From assembly GCA_002790835.1 (NCBI GenBank), contig PFVX01000006.1, forward strand, positions 1-60,266: a DNA stretch of 60,266 nt, given 5' to 3'. The translations under genes and the position numbers were made by a program. The notes below the pieces were generated by a model. That model saw nothing but the letters and a program-made list of their open reading frames with translations. It was not told the origin of the DNA and made no database searches. The DNA is from a bacterium CG_4_9_14_3_um_filter_65_15. Lineage in GTDB: Bacteria; Krumholzibacteriota; Krumholzibacteriia; LZORAL124-64-63. Below are positions 81 through 38,495 of this stretch, one piece after another; the stretch's first letter is position 1, and the number at the start of each line of letters is the position of its first letter.

Positions 81-212
81 TCGCAGGCCCTTACCGAAAC
101 GCCGGAAGGGTACCAGCTCGTGGCCCACGATCCTGATTTCGAGAAAACCATGCAGGCCGCCGAAGGGTTCATGAGCCGCTACCGAAATGCGCTGCGGGAA
201 TTGGCCAAATGA
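81..212 (+). pseudogene. AbrB/MazE-type antitoxin, N-terminal DNA-binding domain missing
   Basis: After an in-frame TAA at 78-80 the frame reads ...LTETPEGYQLVAHDPDFE, then MQAAEGFMSRYRNALRELAK, and stops at 210-212. In AbrB/MazE/SpoVT antitoxins that partner Doc toxins, this C-terminal half (LTETP.G, DPDFE, RNALRELAK) follows a swapped-hairpin DNA-binding domain of about 35 residues. That domain is absent here; the upstream sequence is transposase tail. The stop overlaps the Doc start (ATGA at 209-212), as expected for coupled antitoxin-toxin translation. Internal starts exist (GTG 120, ATG 150), so a short toxin-binding peptide might still be made. Expression is not known. Confidence 0.7.
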
Positions 213-610
213 CGCCTCCGAAATGGCTATCCAAGGTGGTCATTTTGGCGATCCACAGCCGCCTGTTGGCCGAACACGGCGGCGATTCAGGGCTGCGCGA
301 TGAGAGCCTGCTGGAATCGGCGTTGGCCGCTCCGCTCAACCACCACGAGTACGATCACGCCGACATCTTCACTCTGGCGGCGGCGTATGCCCATGCTTGG
401 GCGACCAACCATCCGTTTGCCGACCGCAACAAGCGCACGGCGTTCGTGGCCGCCGGCCTCTTTCTGGAATTGAATGGTTTTTCCCTGAATGCCCCCGAAC
501 CGGACGCAGTGCTGGCCGTGATGGCGCTGTCCCGCGGCGAGATGGCGGTTGGGGAATTCGGCAAGTGGCTGCAGATATCTTCCGTCGCCCTGGGCGAGGG
601 CGACGGCTGA
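209..610 (+). CDS. doc: Doc-type death-on-curing toxin (Fic fold)
   Basis: This 133-residue protein is the usual length for Doc. The family signature is HPFADRNKRTAF: the Fic/Doc HxFx(D/A)xNKR loop with its catalytic His, phosphate-binding Asn-Lys-Arg and flanking hydrophobic helix. The middle Gly of the commoner HPFADGNKR is Arg here, a variant I believe also occurs in Doc proteins. Doc toxins phosphorylate elongation factor Tu and halt translation; assigning that activity here is by family. The start ATG overlaps the stop of the antitoxin remnant by four bases. No frameshift is visible, so the toxin looks intact while its antitoxin has lost its DNA-binding domain. Confidence 0.9.
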   Translation: MTPPKWLSKVVILAIHSRLLAEHGGDSGLRDESLLESALAAPLNHHEYDHADIFTLAAAYAHAWATNHPFADRNKRTAFVAAGLFLELNGFSLNAPEPDAVLAVMALSRGEMAVGEFGKWLQISSVALGEGDG

Positions 611-5484: not shown

Positions 5485-6447
5485 TCAGATGAGCCCGGCC
5501 TTGCGCGCCAGTTCTTCGCACTTCGCGGTCAGGCGGGCGTATTCGTGCAGATCGGGCGCAAGCACGGTGATGCGTCGTCCCACCGCGATGGCCTCGACGA
5601 GGCGCTCGCAGTTCACCAGGATCTTGAATTTTTCCCGCAGCAGCAGCACGTGATCGGGGAAGCGGGCTTCGGCGCGGCCGGCGACCCCCAGGGCTTCCGG
5701 CCATCGTTCCAGTTCACCCAACAGCTGCAGATAACCCGTCCAGCCGAAAATCCAATTCGGCGAAGCCGTCACCGTGGTCTCCAGGATGGACAGGGCTTCG
5801 TCCGTGCGGCCGTCCTCGTGATACAGCTTGGCCAGCATGGTCCGCGCCCGATCCACGCTGGAGCCGCCGCCGGTCAGGACCGCCATCTTCTCCAGCATCG
5901 GGAACGCCTCGCGGCCCCGGCCTTCCTGGATCAGGATCCACGCCAGTTCCAGCGCGGCTATGGGGTCCTCGGGCTGGGCTTCCACTTTTTTTCGCACCAG
6001 CCGGGCGTAGAATTCGTTCCGGGAATCGTTGGCCGCAGGTCCCTGCACGTAGCCGTAATGGTGGATGGGGATGTCCAGCAGGCGTGGGGTTAGGCCCAGG
6101 CGGGCCAGGGAGGCCGACAGGTCCTCATGCACGCAACCTTCCCAGCGCAGACCCGGCACCACCGCAAAGAAACGGTACTGGTGGGCGACGAAGAATCCCC
6201 CGTGACCCTTTTCCATTTCCGGGTAGCGGCCGGTCACCGGCTGCCATTCCTGATGCCGGGCCTCGTCGTAGTAGTTCCACTGGGGAAGCAGATACCCACG
6301 AGGTGCGCCTTGGGCGAGGTCGCGCAGGCGGGCGAAGTCACCGGCGGCGATGCGCTCGTCGATGTCCAGGGCGATGACCCAGTCTCCGCGGGCGGCATCC
6401 AGGGCGGCGCCGGGGCCGTCCGCAGGTCGAATCGCGCATGAGACCGG
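5485..6447 (-). pseudogene. 5'-truncated family 2 glycosyltransferase with TPR tail
   Basis: The open frame begins after an in-frame stop at 6448-6450 and has no upstream ATG. It opens inside the catalytic domain: GPGAALDAARGDWVIALDIDE matches the GT2 stretch where the metal-binding DxDE motif normally sits about 80 residues into the protein. The N-terminal nucleotide-binding part (I-V-x-N-E type) is missing. Downstream are WEGCVHEDL, typical of GT2-TPR proteins, and then a TPR-like helical region (about residues 150-310). The frame abuts the 3' end of the PAP2 gene (6494), so the first part was probably lost in a deletion. A GTG at 6237 could still yield the 250-residue C-terminal part. Confidence 0.7.
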
Positions 6448-6493
6448 TCACAGCGAGCAGACTAACCCCATTCCGAGGGGTGGGCAAAGGGAA

Positions 6494-7426
6494 TCAGAAG
6501 CGGGCGAAATTCCGCAACCGATCCCGCGCGGTGTCGCCCAGGCGGTCCATGGTGTAGACCACGAAGATGGAAAGCATCATGCCGGCCGCGACGTCCACCA
6601 CGTAGTGGTAACGGCAGTAGACCGTGGACATGCACAGCAGGATGAACAGGATCGTCATCCACCAGCGATGGCGGGGAAAACGTCGCCAGGTGTGCAGCCA
6701 GGGGATGAACGATGCGGCCACGTGGGAGGAAGGGAAGGCCGCGCCCAGGATGGCGCCGTTCTGGTGGATGTGGAGCATGATGCGCGTGAAGACCCATCCG
6801 CCCACGTCCACGAATCCGGCGCGGAAGTACTTGGGTCCCCAGGCGGGAAAGATGGTGTACAGGGTGTAGCAGATCAGCATGACCGCGCTCAGGTCCCGCA
6901 CGAATTCCCGTACGGCATCCCACCGCGCTTCGCGTGACAGATCGCGGGCGCGAAAGACCAGCACCAGGAAGATCACGGCCAGGAAGTAGTAGCTGAAGTA
7001 GGCGAACTCCATCAGTTCGTGGAACCAGGGCCAGGGCCAGACCTCGGACCAGCGCAGGCTGGGCTGGAAACCGAAGATCACCTGCTCCATGTGGATCAGA
7101 CCTGGGTCGAGGCTGCTCTCGAAACTGAAGAAGATCAGGCCCAGGTACTGCAGCTCGGTATAGAACAGGGGAAAGATCAGGGGCAGGTAGATTTCGCCCA
7201 GCAGTCGCGCGGCGACATGGCGGCGTGAGCGCAGCCAAGGCGGCAGGAACCAGATGGCCACAGCCATGGCGCCGTGCACCAGGGCGTTGAGCCACGGATG
7301 GGGGAAGATGGACGGTCTCAACAGGGGGAAGCAGGCGCTGACCAGCAGGTAGATCACCGCCCAACGGTCGATGTTCATCCGGCCCAGGGACAGACGCACC
7401 AGCGGGTTGCGGGGGCTCAGAGCCAT
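6494..7426 (-). CDS. AUR1-like PAP2-family membrane protein (candidate sphingolipid head-group enzyme)
   Basis: A 310-residue polytopic membrane protein with about six hydrophobic segments. PAP2 catalytic motifs are present: FPSSHVAAS with H235, and STVYCRYHYVVDV with H274 and D278. The long N-terminal membrane region and the YxRYHYVVDV form resemble inositol-phosphoceramide synthases (AUR1-like PAP2_3) more than soluble-substrate phosphatases. In Bacteroides a PAP2 protein performs inositol phosphorylceramide synthesis. Its start overlaps the stop of the reductase gene upstream by ten bases, so it is in the same operon as the serine palmitoyltransferase-like, GNAT and reductase genes. Head-group transfer is an inference; a plain lipid phosphatase is the alternative. 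Confidence 0.75.
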   Translation of the reverse strand: MALSPRNPLVRLSLGRMNIDRWAVIYLLVSACFPLLRPSIFPHPWLNALVHGAMAVAIWFLPPWLRSRRHVAARLLGEIYLPLIFPLFYTELQYLGLIFFSFESSLDPGLIHMEQVIFGFQPSLRWSEVWPWPWFHELMEFAYFSYYFLAVIFLVLVFRARDLSREARWDAVREFVRDLSAVMLICYTLYTIFPAWGPKYFRAGFVDVGGWVFTRIMLHIHQNGAILGAAFPSSHVAASFIPWLHTWRRFPRHRWWMTILFILLCMSTVYCRYHYVVDVAAGMMLSIFVVYTMDRLGDTARDRLRNFARF

Positions 7427-8433
7427 CGTTCCCTCCGGTAGAAGGCGACCGTGTCCGCGAAGCCCGATGCGGCGTCATGCGCGGCGGAAAACCCGGTGGC
7501 AGCGCCCAGACGGCTCCCGTCGCACGCCCATCCGCAAACTTCCAGATCCTTGAGACGATCCGCGCGGAGCACCGATATCCCGCCGCCGGTCAGGGGCCTC
7601 AGCAGACCCGCGATGAATTTCAGCAGGCCCAGCGGCACGGTCACGGTGCGGACCTTGCGCCCACAGGCCAGAGCCAGGGCGGAAGTCAGATCCTTGTTGT
7701 CATAACCCCGGTGGCCGTCGTCCACGAAGAACACGCCGGTCGCTTCGGGGGTCTCCAGCAAGGAAACGGCCGCCCGTGCGGCGTCCCGTCCGTGGACCAG
7801 GGAAAGGCCGGCCATGGGGCCGGTGAAGCGCACGGTCCAGCCCCGCAGGGCGGCTTTGACCAGGGGTAGGAATCCGCGGTCGCGCGGGCCGTACAGGGCC
7901 GGCGGGCGCAGCACGACGGTGCGGAAGGGATGGTCGTGTTCCAACAGCAGCTTTTCCGCCGCGACCTTGCTGCGGCCGTAGCCGGTGACGGGCCGGCAGG
8001 GGTCGTCCTCGCGGGCCGGGCGGGCCGGGGCGGCGGGACCGTGGGCCGCGAGGCTCGAGATCAACAGGAACGATCCGCCGCCCTGGGGATGCCATTCGCG
8101 GCGACAGGCTGCCAGCAGGCAACGGGTGGTCTCCACGTTGGCCCGCAGGTAGGACTCGTCGTCGGGAGCGGTCACGCGCCCGGCGCAATGGATCACCGCA
8201 CGCACCCCGCGCACGAAATCGGTGCAGGCGGCCGCATCGCTCAGATCGAGGGGGAAGGATTCGATGTCCTTGTCCGCGATCCAGCGCAGATCGCTGGTGG
8301 GTCGGATCGAGGCGCGGACCCGGAAGCCGCTGTCGAGGAGCTCGTCGGCGATATGACTGCCCAGAAACCCGGTGGCCCCCGTCAGGGCGATCACCGGGCC
8401 GCGGCCCGGCCGGCTTGCCGCACCGTGGGGCAT
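7417..8433 (-). CDS. NAD(P)-dependent epimerase/dehydratase-type reductase (candidate ceramide reductase CerR)
   Basis: A 338-residue extended SDR. The cofactor motif TGATGFLG is at residues 18-25 and the catalytic Tyr-Lys pair is Y152/K156 in GYGRSK. Family resemblance is to the 3-beta-HSD/NAD-dependent epimerase group that includes the bacterial ceramide reductase of Caulobacter. The ATG at 8433 overlaps the stop of the GNAT gene by one base (TAATG). Position between a GNAT ceramide-synthase candidate and a PAP2 gene, downstream of a serine palmitoyltransferase-like gene, supports reduction of the 3-keto group of an oxidised ceramide. On sequence alone a nucleotide-sugar or sterol-type substrate cannot be excluded. 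Confidence 0.75.
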   Translation of the reverse strand: MPHGAASRPGRGPVIALTGATGFLGSHIADELLDSGFRVRASIRPTSDLRWIADKDIESFPLDLSDAAACTDFVRGVRAVIHCAGRVTAPDDESYLRANVETTRCLLAACRREWHPQGGGSFLLISSLAAHGPAAPARPAREDDPCRPVTGYGRSKVAAEKLLLEHDHPFRTVVLRPPALYGPRDRGFLPLVKAALRGWTVRFTGPMAGLSLVHGRDAARAAVSLLETPEATGVFFVDDGHRGYDNKDLTSALALACGRKVRTVTVPLGLLKFIAGLLRPLTGGGISVLRADRLKDLEVCGWACDGSRLGAATGFSAAHDAASGFADTVAFYRRERWL

Positions 8434-9551
8434 TATACCTCGCGCTCGTAGATGCGGTAGGTCTTGTAGCAGTCGCCCCCGTAGCCTTCGAGGATGCGGT
8501 TCATGGGCTTGTTGTCGGCGAGGATCCACGAGCATTCCCCGCTCGTGATGCCCTTGCTGAACCCGTACTGCATGGTGCGGTACACCATGGCCATGTCGAT
8601 GCCCAGCTTGCGGAATTCGGGCAGGACACCCATCAGGATGGTGCGGGCGTACTGGATGCGGCGCTTGGCCAGCAGGAACTTCAACCAACCGAAGGGCCAC
8701 AGCTTGCCGCGCAACGGTTGCATGGCCTGGTTGAAGTCGGGAATGGTCAGGCTGAAGCCCACCGGCTTGCCCTCCATCTCGGCGATGAGCATGAACTCGG
8801 CATCGACCATGGACTTCATGTCCTTGGCCATGTAGGCGAACTCGGCGTCATCCAGGGGGATGAAGCCCCAGTTCTGGCTCCAGCAGGCGTTGTACAGCTC
8901 GCGCACGAGGCTGGCTTCCTCGATGAACCGCTTCATGTTCATGGGCCGGATCACCAGGCCGGGGCGGTCCAGGATGCGGTCGATGAGATTCTGCATCTTC
9001 GGCGGCAGTTTTCCCTCGGTGTGCATCTCCCAGGCCAGAAGATCCTTGGCCCCGGTCAGCCCGAAGTCCTCGAAATGGCGCTCGTAGTAGCGCCGGTTGT
9101 AGGGCATGCCGACGACCGGGCGGTTGAATTTGCCCCCGACCTGCAGGCCGTACCAGTCGTGGTTGGATGTGAAGCAGCCGGGTCCGCGCATGATCTCCAT
9201 GTCGCGCGAGGCGATCCAGGCGCGGGCCGATTCCAGCAGGGCGGCCGCGGCCTCGGGGTCGTCATCCACCTCGTAGAAGCCGAAGAAACCGGTTTTTTCG
9301 TCCCAGTGCTTGTTGTTGGCCTCGTCGACGCAGGCGGCGATCCGGCCGACGACTTCCCCGTCCCTCCGGGCCAGCCACAGGGCCGCTTCGGCGTGCTTGA
9401 AGAACGGATTCTTCTGCTTGTCCAGGAAGTGGCGCATCTCGCCCAGCAGGGGAAACACGTAGTTGGGGTCGTCGCCGTAGAGGCGGTAGGGGACCTGGAG
9501 GAAGGCGTCGATGTCGGCCTTGGAGCCTACGGGATGGATCGTCAAGGGCAT
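8433..9551 (-). CDS. GNAT-fold acyltransferase (candidate bacterial ceramide synthase bCerS)
   Basis: A 372-residue protein opening MPLTIHPVGSKADIDAF, followed by VPYRLYGDDPNYVFPLL and RDGEVVGRIAACVDE, the pattern of a family of long GNAT proteins often annotated as hypothetical or dATP pyrophosphohydrolase-like. Bacterial ceramide synthases described in Caulobacter belong to this family. A central GPGCFTSNHDWYGLQV block and a second GNAT-like half (from about residue 190) are consistent. The ATG at 9551 has AAGGAG nine bases upstream. It lies directly downstream of the serine palmitoyltransferase-like gene and overlaps the reductase gene by one base. N-acylation of 3-ketosphinganine is inferred from family and context. 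Confidence 0.75.
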   Translation of the reverse strand: MPLTIHPVGSKADIDAFLQVPYRLYGDDPNYVFPLLGEMRHFLDKQKNPFFKHAEAALWLARRDGEVVGRIAACVDEANNKHWDEKTGFFGFYEVDDDPEAAAALLESARAWIASRDMEIMRGPGCFTSNHDWYGLQVGGKFNRPVVGMPYNRRYYERHFEDFGLTGAKDLLAWEMHTEGKLPPKMQNLIDRILDRPGLVIRPMNMKRFIEEASLVRELYNACWSQNWGFIPLDDAEFAYMAKDMKSMVDAEFMLIAEMEGKPVGFSLTIPDFNQAMQPLRGKLWPFGWLKFLLAKRRIQYARTILMGVLPEFRKLGIDMAMVYRTMQYGFSKGITSGECSWILADNKPMNRILEGYGGDCYKTYRIYEREV

Positions 9552-9615
9552 AGCCGGATTCTCCTTGGCAGGGTCCGGCGGGGTGCCGGGCCACGCAATG
9601 GCGGGGGGGTCCGGG

Positions 9616-10800
9616 TCAGGCGGGTACGACGCCCAACTTTCGGCCCACGGCGACCATGATGTCCATGGCCTTGTTGATCTCATCCTCGGTGTGGGTAGCC
9701 ATGAGGCTGAGGCGGATCAGGGCGTTGCCGGGTTCGACGGCCGGGCTGACCACGGGGTTGACGAACACACCCTCGTCGATGAGCAGGCGGCACATCTTGA
9801 AGGCGACCATGTCCTCGCCGACGACCGCGGGGATGATGGGGGTCTCGCTGGGCCCGGTGTTGAATCCCGCGTCCCGCAACCGTTCGCGCATGAGGTCGTT
9901 GTTGCGCCACAAGGCCTCGTGACGCCACTCCTCTTCGAGCATGACGTCCACCGCGGCCGAAACCGAGGCCACCGAGGCCGGCGGCATGCTGGCGGAGAAC
10001 ATCAGGGCGCGGGAGATGTGCTGGATGTAGTGGATGGTGTCGGTGTCGCTGGCCACGAACCCGCCCACCGAGGCCAGGGATTTGCTGAAGGTCCCCATGA
10101 TCAGGTGGGCGCGCGAGGTCTCGCCGAAGTGGTCGCAGGTGCCGCGGCCCTGCTTGCCCAGCACGCCGATGCCGTGGGCGTCGTCCACCATGACGAGGGC
10201 TCCGTTGGCGGCGGCCAGGTCCAGGATCCCGGGCAGCTTGGCGATGTCCCCTTCCATGGAGAACACGCCGTCGACGATGATCAGCTTGTTGTCGCCCGGG
10301 ACGTTCTTCAGGACCTGCTCCAGGGACTCCATGTCGTTGTGCTTGAATTTCACCACGTTGGCATAGGAAAGCCTGGCGCCGTCGATGATGGAAGCGTGGT
10401 CGGTGCGGTCCACCAATATGGTGTCGTTGCGGCCGGCCAGGGAGCTGAGGACGCCCTGGTTGACCATGAACCCGGTGGAGAAGACCAGGGCCTTCTCCTT
10501 GCCCACCAGCTTGGCCAGCTTTTCCTCAAGCTCGATGTGGATGTCCAGGGTTCCGTTCAGGAAGCGGGATCCGGCGCAACCGGTGCCGTACTTGGCGATG
10601 GCGTCCTGGGCGGCCTCCTTGACCCGGGGGTGGTTCGTCAGCCCCAGGTAGTTGTTGCTGCCCAGCATGATCACTTCGTGGCCCTTGTACCTGACCGTAT
10701 TCTCCTGGGCCGATTCGATGACCCGGAAGTAATTGTACAGGTCGGCGGCCATCAGTTCTCTGGCGGCGGTGAACTTGCGGACTTTATCAAGCAGGCCCAT
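9616..10800 (-). CDS. spt: Serine palmitoyltransferase-like alpha-oxoamine synthase
   Basis: A 394-residue PLP enzyme of the alpha-oxoamine synthase family (KBL, BioF, SPT, HemA). Key segments: MLGSNNYLGLTNHP near residue 50, the VDDAHGIGVLG strand, and the PLP lysine K240 in GTFSKSLASVGGF. The N-terminal extension (MGLLDKVRKF ... YNYFRVIESAQ) is characteristic of the soluble SPT proteins of Bacteroidetes-type bacteria rather than of KBL or BioF. It would condense serine with a long acyl-CoA to 3-ketosphinganine. First gene of the minus-strand lipid cassette, followed by GNAT, reductase and PAP2 genes. 2-amino-3-ketobutyrate-CoA ligase is the main alternative, but no threonine dehydrogenase gene is adjacent. 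Confidence 0.85.
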   Translation of the reverse strand: MGLLDKVRKFTAARELMAADLYNYFRVIESAQENTVRYKGHEVIMLGSNNYLGLTNHPRVKEAAQDAIAKYGTGCAGSRFLNGTLDIHIELEEKLAKLVGKEKALVFSTGFMVNQGVLSSLAGRNDTILVDRTDHASIIDGARLSYANVVKFKHNDMESLEQVLKNVPGDNKLIIVDGVFSMEGDIAKLPGILDLAAANGALVMVDDAHGIGVLGKQGRGTCDHFGETSRAHLIMGTFSKSLASVGGFVASDTDTIHYIQHISRALMFSASMPPASVASVSAAVDVMLEEEWRHEALWRNNDLMRERLRDAGFNTGPSETPIIPAVVGEDMVAFKMCRLLIDEGVFVNPVVSPAVEPGNALIRLSLMATHTEDEINKAMDIMVAVGRKLGVVPA

Positions 10801-10902: not shown

Positions 10903-11469
10903 CTAGAAAACCTCGGCAGTGAAAACCCGGAACCGGGCCCCATCCTGCCACGCGTGGGGGGGCAGGCCGGCCTTGAGAGCCAGGTGCCCCAAAGTGGTCT
11001 CCAGGTTCCAGCCCTGTTCGGGGGCGACCTGGGGCAGAAACACCGCGCGGCGCCCGGCTTTTTCGAGCAGGATGCCGTGTTGGCCGATGATGATGTCCTC
11101 GGGGCCGGGCACCATTCGCAGGGGGCTGAGGGCGGAAATCTCCAGTTCCAGGGAGGGCACTTCGCGTGGGGTCACCGGGGCGAAGCGGGGATCCCGGACC
11201 GTCGCGGCGGCGGCGTTCTCGGCGACGGCATCCATCAGGGGCTGGATCCCCTCGATGGTGCCGATGCAGCCCCGCAGGTTGCCGGCGGCGGTCAGGGTCA
11301 CGAAGGCGCCGCGATCCTGCTTGAGGGAGGGACCCGGTTCGAGGCCCCTTTCGGTGGCCAGCAGGCGGGGATCCGGGCCGGGCTTTCCAGCAGCCGCGGC
11401 CTCGACTCCCAGCCAGGCCAGATCCCGCAGGAATTCCCGTTCTTCGGCGGTGAGGGTGGATTCAGCCAT
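10903..11469 (-). CDS. amrA: AMMECR1 domain protein (AmmeMemoRadiSam system protein A)
   Basis: A 188-residue AMMECR1-family protein. The diagnostic LRGCIG motif is at residues 65-70, followed by AAAATVRDPRFAPVTPREVP and the LEISALSP strand, all conserved in the family. Its start overlaps the end of the MEMO gene by eight bases, the usual AMMECR1-MEMO pairing. In many genomes a radical SAM gene completes the trio; it is not in this window. Biochemical role is unsettled. The gene is followed after about 100 bases by the spt-like gene on the same strand. Confidence 0.9.
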   Translation of the reverse strand: MAESTLTAEEREFLRDLAWLGVEAAAAGKPGPDPRLLATERGLEPGPSLKQDRGAFVTLTAAGNLRGCIGTIEGIQPLMDAVAENAAAATVRDPRFAPVTPREVPSLELEISALSPLRMVPGPEDIIIGQHGILLEKAGRRAVFLPQVAPEQGWNLETTLGHLALKAGLPPHAWQDGARFRVFTAEVF

Positions 11470-37142: not shown

Positions 37143-37867
37143 CCACCATCGAGCTGCCGGACATCGAGATGCCCGGCGGTCTGTGCCACTTCGTGGCCAC
37201 GCCCATCGGCAACATGCAGGATGTGACCCTGCGTGCGTTGGGGGTGCTGGCGGCGGCCGAGGTGATCTACGCCGAGGATACGCGCCACACGTCCGGCCTG
37301 CTGAAGCGCTACGGCCTGCGGGCTCCCCTGGTCAGCTACCACGATCACAACAAGCAGCAGGTGGTGCCGCGCATCGTGGCGGACCTACAGGTGCAGAAAA
37401 GGGTGGCGATCGTCAGCGACGCGGGCATGCCCTGCGTCAACGACCCCGGCTATTCCCTGGTGCTGGCCCTGTTGCGGGAGGGCCTGCCCTGGACGATCAT
37501 TCCCGGGCCGTCGAGCGTGCTCGCCGGGCTGGTGCTGGCGGGTTTTTCGCCGGACAGATTCCTTTTCGCAGGGTATCCTCCGCGCAAGAAAGGCCAGCGC
37601 AGCCGCTTCCTGGAGGAGATGCTGGCCGCCGGCTGCACCGTGGTGCTGCTGGAGTCCTGCCACCGCATCACCAGCACCCTGGAGATGCTCGCGGAGCTCG
37701 ATCCGCAGCGACAGGTGGCGGTCGTGCGGGAAATCACCAAGATTTACGAGGAGACCCTGCGGGGTACGGCCTCCGAGGTCGCCCCCCGGATGACGGGCAA
37801 GCGCCTGCGGGGGGAACTGGTTTTGGTCCTGGACGGGCCGGGCAAGAAGGAGTCCCGTGGTGAGTGA
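37139..37867 (+). CDS. rsmI: 16S rRNA (cytidine-1402 2'-O) methyltransferase
   Basis: A 242-residue member of the tetrapyrrole-methylase fold. TPIGNMQDVTLRAL (about 21-34), YAEDTRHTSGLLKRY, VSDAGMPCVNDPGY and PGPSSVLAGLVLAG are the family signatures, followed by FAGYPPRKKGQR. Methylates C1402 of 16S rRNA together with RsmH. GTG 37139 overlaps the nadE stop. Slightly shorter than E. coli RsmI because the C-terminal extension is absent, as in many bacteria. Its end overlaps the next start. Confidence 0.95.
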   Translation: MTTIELPDIEMPGGLCHFVATPIGNMQDVTLRALGVLAAAEVIYAEDTRHTSGLLKRYGLRAPLVSYHDHNKQQVVPRIVADLQVQKRVAIVSDAGMPCVNDPGYSLVLALLREGLPWTIIPGPSSVLAGLVLAGFSPDRFLFAGYPPRKKGQRSRFLEEMLAAGCTVVLLESCHRITSTLEMLAELDPQRQVAVVREITKIYEETLRGTASEVAPRMTGKRLRGELVLVLDGPGKKESRGE

Positions 37868-38495
37868 TCAGAACGTGCCTTTCAAGCGCCGGATGCGCGA
37901 CCGGCTGCGGCCGGTGATTCTGACCCTGGACAGCCTCGGAGCCACGCCGCTGAGCGTATCGGTCGCCGGACTCGTGATCACCGCCTTCAGCGGACTGATC
38001 GTGGGCTCGGGACACCTGTTCTGGGGCGGGATCGTGTTCCTGCTCGGCTCGGCTTTCGACATGCTGGACGGCGACCTGGCCCGGTTGCAGGGCACCGTGT
38101 CGGCGCGCGGGGCGTTCCTGGATTCCTGTTTCGACCGCCTGGGCGAGGCCTTCCTGTTGGCGGGCCTGACCTGGCACCTGGCCACCCGGGGCGAGCCCGC
38201 CGGGTGGACCCTGGTGCTGATCGTGATCACCCTGACCGGCAGCCTGACCACCAGCTATGTGCGCGCCCGGGCCGAGGGCGTGGGGGAGACCTGCTTCGTG
38301 GGCTGGCTGCAGCGCACCGAACGGGTGATCCTGCTGGTCGCGATGCTGCTTCTGGGCCGGTGGACCATCACCCCGGTCCTGGCTTTCCTGGCCGTCGCCA
38401 CCATGGCGACGACCCTGCAACGATTGGTTCATGTCGCGGCCAAGCTGCCCGGGCCCATGTCCCGGGAACCGGAAGAAGAGGACCCGTGGCAATGA
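37857..38495 (+). CDS. CDP-alcohol phosphatidyltransferase family protein
   Basis: A 212-residue integral membrane enzyme with about six helices. The complete CDP-alcohol motif DX2DGX2ARX8GX3DX3D runs D68, D71, G72, A75, R76, G85, D89, D93. Candidates are phosphatidylglycerophosphate, phosphatidylinositol-phosphate or archaetidyl-type synthases; the sequence seen does not separate them. The frame overlaps rsmI by 11 bases; either GTG 37857 or GTG 37860 may be used. Its stop overlaps tmk. If the PAP2 protein at 6494-7426 transfers an inositol head group, this gene is one possible source of the donor lipid, but that is only speculation. Confidence 0.88.
   Translation: MVSDQNVPFKRRMRDRLRPVILTLDSLGATPLSVSVAGLVITAFSGLIVGSGHLFWGGIVFLLGSAFDMLDGDLARLQGTVSARGAFLDSCFDRLGEAFLLAGLTWHLATRGEPAGWTLVLIVITLTGSLTTSYVRARAEGVGETCFVGWLQRTERVILLVAMLLLGRWTITPVLAFLAVATMATTLQRLVHVAAKLPGPMSREPEEEDPWQ

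Follow-up and report, generated by a model that had tools for sequence, protein, structure and literature searches.

Does a run of four closely packed genes in a genome of the uncultured phylum Krumholzibacteriota encode both the synthesis of ceramide and the enzyme that furnishes its head group? The initial annotation of the locus had read it as a complete minimal operon for ceramide and a phosphate-linked head group. We examined the window, that is, the whole 60,266-nucleotide stretch of DNA analysed here, which lies on contig 25 of a 3.39 Mb host assembly (94 contigs, 95% complete), and compared 80 genomes of the phylum, 38 of them from the host's own family (coded f1). In light of the results presented below, the four genes almost certainly constitute a ceramide operon, and we consider it probable that this operon brings its own head-group enzyme, a PAP2 protein that would move phosphoinositol from phosphatidylinositol onto the ceramide.

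A conserved four-gene arrangement

Four same-strand genes, with a TAATG junction and a ten-base overlap, had been claimed for the locus, and inspection of the sequence confirms the coordinates, the overlaps, and the residues K240 and Y152/K156 (Table 1): a single base is common to the GNAT stop and the SDR start, the SDR and PAP2 frames overlap by 10 bases, and spt is separated from the GNAT gene by a gap of 64 bases. Both the GC content and the third-position GC of the four frames are consistent with real genes. For the GNAT gene, 9551 is the most likely start: relatives keep it, whereas the longest frame, which opens upstream at 9683, is not conserved.

Table 1. Ceramide operon genes and the candidate head-group-donor gene in the window
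Feature	Coordinates	Strand	Length (aa)	Residues and remarks
spt, serine palmitoyltransferase	9616-10800	minus	394	K240 within GTFSKSL; PLP; Bacteroidota/Sphingobacterium type
bcerS-like tandem GNAT N-acyltransferase	8433-9551	minus	372	
cerR-like extended SDR reductase	7417-8433	minus	338	Y152/K156 in YGRSK, numbered from ATG at 8433
PAP2_3 membrane protein, probable ceramide phosphotransferase	6494-7426	minus	310	H235, H274, D278; PF14378
CDP-alcohol phosphatidyltransferase, PI-phosphate synthase type	37857-38495	plus		predicted head-group-donor supply; outside operon

The GNAT gene is found in 32 of the 38 f1 genomes and, elsewhere among the 80, as a strong match in two genomes of family f5 and a weaker, partial match in one of family f6. 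Every f1 locus that was fully read carries spt, GNAT, SDR and PAP2 in this order, on one strand and within ~4.3 to 6.0 kb, and the same order recurs in the f5 genomes G034 and G038; such recurrence of order and strand argues that the arrangement is not due to chance. PAP2 and GNAT occur together in 32 of the 80 genomes, are both missing from 45 and occur singly in 3, counts that derive from related and hence not independent genomes. In one of these 3, G018, the operon meets a contig edge; the f1 genomes that lack both are G011, G013, G016, G020 and G022.

Single loci in Acidobacteria (L068) and Gemmatimonadetes (L106) share the spt-GNAT-SDR-PAP2 order, and the same four genes are found in different arrangements in Myxococcota, Planctomycetota and Bryobacterales. 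When GNAT relatives in named genomes of many phyla were surveyed for neighbors within 8 kb, Spt was found in 49 of 80 cases, an SDR in 35 and a PAP2 protein in 17. The initial annotation had placed the operon in a lineage from which such lipids are not known to have been described. The gene set itself extends beyond Krumholzibacteriota; our literature search found no paper naming the phylum together with sphingolipids and located no lipid data for the lineage. A Black Sea survey, the main text of which names only some of the phyla concerned, detected Spt-like genes in 38 phyla (PMC11334938); Krumholzibacteriota may be among them, and given this breadth ceramide genes in one more phylum are unsurprising. 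The kind of pathway is accordingly known and apparently new for Krumholzibacteriota, with a last enzyme from a subfamily that seems uncharacterised.

Enzymes of ceramide synthesis

In the proposed pathway Spt, the GNAT and the SDR would together yield dihydroceramide, with serine as the presumed substrate of the first enzyme; the family membership of all three proteins is established by sequence and structure comparison. Among curated models Spt is best matched by NF047600, the Bacteroidota serine palmitoyltransferase, at 581 bits and thus below that model's cut-off of 640, with Kbl at 400 bits and BioF at 388 bits, and the solved Spt structures 3a2b and 8guh match it at E 1e-133 and 450 bits. 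A tree of 88 sequences assigns the Spt proteins of f1 to a 24-row clade shared with those of Bacteroidota and the solved Sphingobacterium enzyme (98% SH-aLRT). E. coli Kbl and BioF, as well as a second oxoamine synthase encoded by the host genome, fall outside this clade, and Spt of alphaproteobacteria occupies a different branch. The assignment of an SPT-type α-oxoamine synthase is upheld, with a Kbl or BioF identity rejected by both the model scores and the tree. Were this synthase to take alanine, glycine or cysteate instead, the product would be a 1-deoxyceramide or a sulfonolipid, lipids that are abundant in Black Sea waters alongside bacteria with Spt-like genes (PMC11334938). We regard this as highly improbable: the window protein is much closer to solved Spt than to the cysteate fatty acyltransferase 28eh, which it matches at 214 bits, and the head-group transferase of the operon would require the 1-hydroxyl that serine provides.

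The second gene product, the GNAT, matched no NCBIfam model and gave but a weak Pfam match, and a direct sequence search of the PDB returned nothing significant for it; its predicted structure (pLDDT 91) displays a tandem GNAT fold. As a reference set we used alphaproteobacterial genomes that have Spt, reading 20 kb around each Spt gene. One such locus (L156) holds an AMP-ligase, an epimerase-type SDR, an acyl carrier protein, Spt, two LptF/LptG proteins, a flippase-like gene and a GNAT, and its cluster (aasR-cerR-acpR-spt-LptF/G, identified by Pfam and gene order) resembles the published CC_1165-CC_1154 layout of Caulobacter crescentus. The GNAT of L156, which here stands in for the C. crescentus protein, aligns with that of the window over its full length at 40% identity (376 columns, E 5e-88), and in a tree of 112 rows the two belong to one family, Spt-linked in 74 of the 112. 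The window protein hence belongs with the GNATs that Caulobacter-type sphingolipid clusters encode, in agreement with its earlier placement in the family that contains bCerS, and would be responsible for N-acylation of the base.

The third enzyme, annotated as an extended SDR with Y152/K156, is confirmed as such, with its Y-x3-K motif present as YGRSK. Against a profile built solely from alphaproteobacterial CerR it reaches 203 bits (E 1e-60), much as do the SDRs linked to spt in other phyla; SDRs without this linkage reach at most 61 bits. It would reduce the 3-keto group, either before or after N-acylation, as published work disagrees on which of the two steps comes first, and one group has placed the CerR of Caulobacter in the periplasm (PMC11087976).

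The same three reactions are thus expected of the window genes as of the Spt-bCerS-CerR system of C. crescentus (CC_1162, CC_1154, CC_1164), with a homologous GNAT (40%, to such a cluster) and SDR (34%). Two features nonetheless set the operon apart from Caulobacter-type clusters. First, the window GNAT gene is flanked by spt and cerR within a single unit, whereas in published proteobacterial clusters cerS is always in a separate operon (PMC11324152). Second, the window Spt is of the Bacteroidota type, and its operon is not accompanied by acpR or aasR, whose products act with Spt in Caulobacter-type clusters. Rhodobacteria Spt is known to prefer acyl-AcpR and Bacteroidetes Spt to use acyl-CoA (PMC11324152, PMC9386255); the lack of both genes beside the operon makes acyl-CoA the likelier acyl donor here.

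A PAP2 protein with an Aur1-like fold

The product of the fourth gene matches Pfam PAP2_3 (PF14378), and a direct sequence search of the PDB with it gave nothing significant; matches came instead from profile and fold searches. In a Foldseek comparison of its AlphaFold model (pLDDT 86) with 350,542 chains, the sole matches with E < 0.001 were the yeast Aur1 structures 9vj4 and 9ivc, which align over the whole length with TM scores of 0.61-0.62 and one of which has ceramide bound. Next in rank were the sphingomyelin-synthase relative 8ijq, PAP2-type phosphatases and acid phosphatases, with query TM scores of at most 0.37. Consistent with this, a profile built from nine PAP2 relatives retrieved AUR1 (E 5e-5) and, almost as strongly but over a local stretch, phosphatase 5jki. 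Residues H235, H274 and D278 are unchanged among the relatives, and the His-39-His-4-Asp spacing (PSxH, HYxxD), counted on the profile alignment, is equal in the window protein and Aur1. Yeast Aur1, the structure of which was solved with its partner subunit Kei1, thereby provides the closest solved fold, yet the two proteins share about 16% identity and belong to separate sequence clades.

Phosphoinositol dihydroceramide synthase of Bacteroides thetaiotaomicron (BT_1522, encoded within BT_1522-1526) likewise features PF14378 and the His-His-Asp triad, in a genome that also has MIPS and PI-phosphate synthase. The window PAP2, however, gives no match to the corresponding model, NF052609, and in the tree the branch between it and the BT_1522-type and Aur1 sequences is fully supported and as long as 2.9 changes per site; together these results speak against a BT_1522 orthologue. 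Relatives within the subfamily are matched in equal numbers by the synthase model and by the lipid A phosphatase model (4 of 17 each). The earlier reading of an AUR1-like PAP2 protein is therefore borne out for fold and catalytic residues, whereas the sequence clade is neither that of Aur1 nor that of BT_1522. Judged by its sequence and modelled structure, the protein represents a separate subfamily with a predicted Aur1-like fold, which accompanies ceramide genes across several phyla; a literature search for PAP2 proteins in spt clusters found none, and the subfamily appears uncharacterised.

We hold it likely that this protein acts as a phosphotransferase. The alternative would be that the first three genes make ceramide and the PAP2 protein serves as a lipid phosphatase, acting for example on ceramide phosphate, phosphatidate or PI-phosphate, with no transfer of a head group. 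The PAP2 superfamily consists mostly of phosphatases, the lipid A 1-phosphatase LpxE model reaches E 3e-8 at best among the four matching relatives, and the phosphatases 5jki and 6ebu turn up in the profile and fold searches. Set against these resemblances, the whole-length fold comparison separates Aur1, with a TM score of about 0.6, from the phosphatases, and K-x6-RP and S-R, which are motifs of PAP2 phosphatases, were not seen in the PAP2 alignment. Overall a phosphatase appears unlikely.

Inositol lipids and the identity of the head group

If the PAP2 protein is a phosphotransferase, its donor should be sought among the lipids that the host can make. Myo-inositol-phosphate synthase (MIPS) is encoded in the host genome, outside the operon, and in 34 of the 38 f1 genomes, and is spread over the phylum regardless of whether the operon is present. 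The single PF01066 match in the host genome is the CDP-alcohol phosphatidyltransferase of the window, 27 kb from the operon, whose product scores 132 bits with the archaetidylinositol-P synthase model, 121 bits with PIPSynth and 30 bits with pgsA, all of the PI-phosphate synthase scores falling below the curated cut-offs shown; 17 relatives from f1, f2 and f5 also match PI-phosphate synthase models best, likewise below those cut-offs, and pgsA-type genes occur in families f3, f4, f6 and f7. No PgsA- or Pss-type gene is found among the host genome's PF01066 matches, and PS decarboxylase was not found in 21 of the 22 genomes searched, including the host genome and 13 family members, so that PE and PG seem to be absent insofar as their usual routes are concerned.

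With MIPS and a PI-phosphate-synthase-type gene present and PS decarboxylase not found, the most plausible donor is phosphatidylinositol, which would make inositol phosphorylceramide the most plausible product, and we consider a phosphoinositol head group probable. Inositol from MIPS would enter through the PI-phosphate synthase encoded in the window, the resulting PI-phosphate would be dephosphorylated, and PAP2, through its His-His-Asp triad, would transfer phosphoinositol from phosphatidylinositol to the ceramide 1-hydroxyl, yielding inositol phosphorylceramide and diacylglycerol. The phosphate-linked head group proposed at the outset thus gains support from both the Aur1-like fold and the inositol-lipid genes of the genome. 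Completeness of the operon can be maintained for its ceramide part, whereas the genes for the head-group donor lie elsewhere in the genome and, within the window, 27 kb away.

Transfer of another head group, such as phosphoethanolamine or phosphoglycerol, might be suspected from the distinctness of the PAP2 clade from known phosphoinositol transferases and from the weak fold match to 8ijq; since neither PE nor PG seems to be present, as noted above, we regard it as distinctly unlikely. The f1 genomes devoid of the operon are informative with regard to phosphatase activity on PI-phosphate: all five retain their single CDP-alcohol phosphatidyltransferase, and four of them MIPS. PAP2 therefore follows ceramide and not phosphatidylinositol: where the ceramide genes have been lost it has gone too, yet the gene of the PI-phosphate synthase type is retained, which renders a role as PI-phosphate phosphatase unlikely.

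Returning to inositol phosphorylceramide as the predicted product, precedent for combining bacterial ceramide genes with inositol head-group genes is offered by a Bacteroidota genome (L225), where spt, GNAT, SDR, MIPS, PgpA, PI-phosphate synthase and an Aur1-type PAP2 form one cluster. In Bacteroidota the Aur1-type PAP2 adjoins MIPS and PI-phosphate synthase, and that of L225 belongs to another subfamily than the window's. The placement of the gene thus differs: in Krumholzibacteriota PAP2 is part of the ceramide operon with the inositol genes elsewhere, whereas in Bacteroides it is found with the inositol genes. Members of the window's own PAP2 subfamily occur about 3 kb from spt, GNAT and SDR at the Myxococcus loci L076 and L077, divergently placed and with PSGH where the window protein has PSSH. 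Ceramide phosphoinositol has been reported from M. xanthus, according to a citation in PMC9246714, and the presence of subfamily PAP2 genes near spt in other Myxococcus species offers a lead toward the gene behind this lipid.

More speculatively, the operon PAP2 proteins might be inositol phosphorylceramide synthases of a second lineage, bacterial and distinct from Aur1 and BT_1522 and present in Krumholzibacteriota, Myxococcota, Acidobacteriota, Gemmatimonadota and others, which would explain the ceramide phosphoinositol of Myxococcus, and f1, lacking the usual PE and PG routes, might carry inositol phospho-head groups on glycerolipids and ceramides alike; as a whole we hold this extension to be rather doubtful. 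If the pathway proposed for the window is true, Krumholzibacteriota make sphingolipids by a one-operon route in which the ceramide genes and the head-group enzyme are inherited together. For other sphingolipid-making phyla, including Myxococcus, where the lipid could be matched to its gene in a laboratory strain, this PAP2 subfamily would then supply a specific candidate for the enzyme that transfers the ceramide head group, and f1, which apparently makes neither PE nor PG, would offer a natural test of membranes based on inositol lipids.

Flanks of the ceramide-type operon

Directly upstream of spt lies a gene for an AmmeMemoRadiSam system protein A, which many relatives likewise carry on the upstream side. 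On the opposite flank, the glycosyltransferase-like frame with its subsequent TPR repeats is open from about position 6452, with its first start codon not before 6237; its N-terminal part is seemingly missing, and this frame at the operon's edge is perhaps a broken gene.

Features in the window and in a Bacteroidota comparison locus
Feature	Location	Strand	Remark
Fic/DOC family gene	window 209-610		at edge of window
Glycosyltransferase-like frame, then TPR repeats	window 5485-6452	minus	follows PAP2 gene
AmmeMemoRadiSam system protein A gene	window 10903-11469	minus	upstream of spt
CDP-alcohol phosphatidyltransferase gene	window 37857-38495	plus	outside operon
L225 cluster	Bacteroidota genome 3264-13999	minus	

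Arrangements of the GNAT gene in other genomes

The GNAT tree contains bCerS-like clades from Ignavibacteria, Chlorobiota and Spirochaetes (loci L082, L088, L079, L074, L102, L105 and L110), and Spt was not found in the locus DNA examined for these. At loci L070, L072, L095 and L103 GNAT and PAP2 genes of the operon's families occur together, again with no Spt within the locus DNA examined; here Spt may be encoded elsewhere, or the acceptor may be a different one. In the Myxococcales loci L067 and L069 the SDR gene is flanked by two bCerS-like GNAT genes, whose products fall into two distinct clades of the same tree. The Bacteroidota locus L225 unites in one cluster spt, GNAT, SDR, myo-inositol-phosphate synthase, PgpA, PI-phosphate synthase, fatty acid hydroxylase and Aur1-type PAP2 genes, with a DUF5686 gene interspersed among them.

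Phospholipid head-group genes in the host family

In nine genomes of f1, the family of the window's host, each at least 90% complete, a single CDP-alcohol phosphatidyltransferase was detected per genome, and wherever f1 copies were scanned, the one in the window included, the enzyme is of the PI-phosphate synthase type. PS decarboxylase was found in none of the 14 f1 genomes searched for it. Together, the single CDP-alcohol phosphatidyltransferase and the lack of PS decarboxylase suggest that members of this family may do without both PG and PE.
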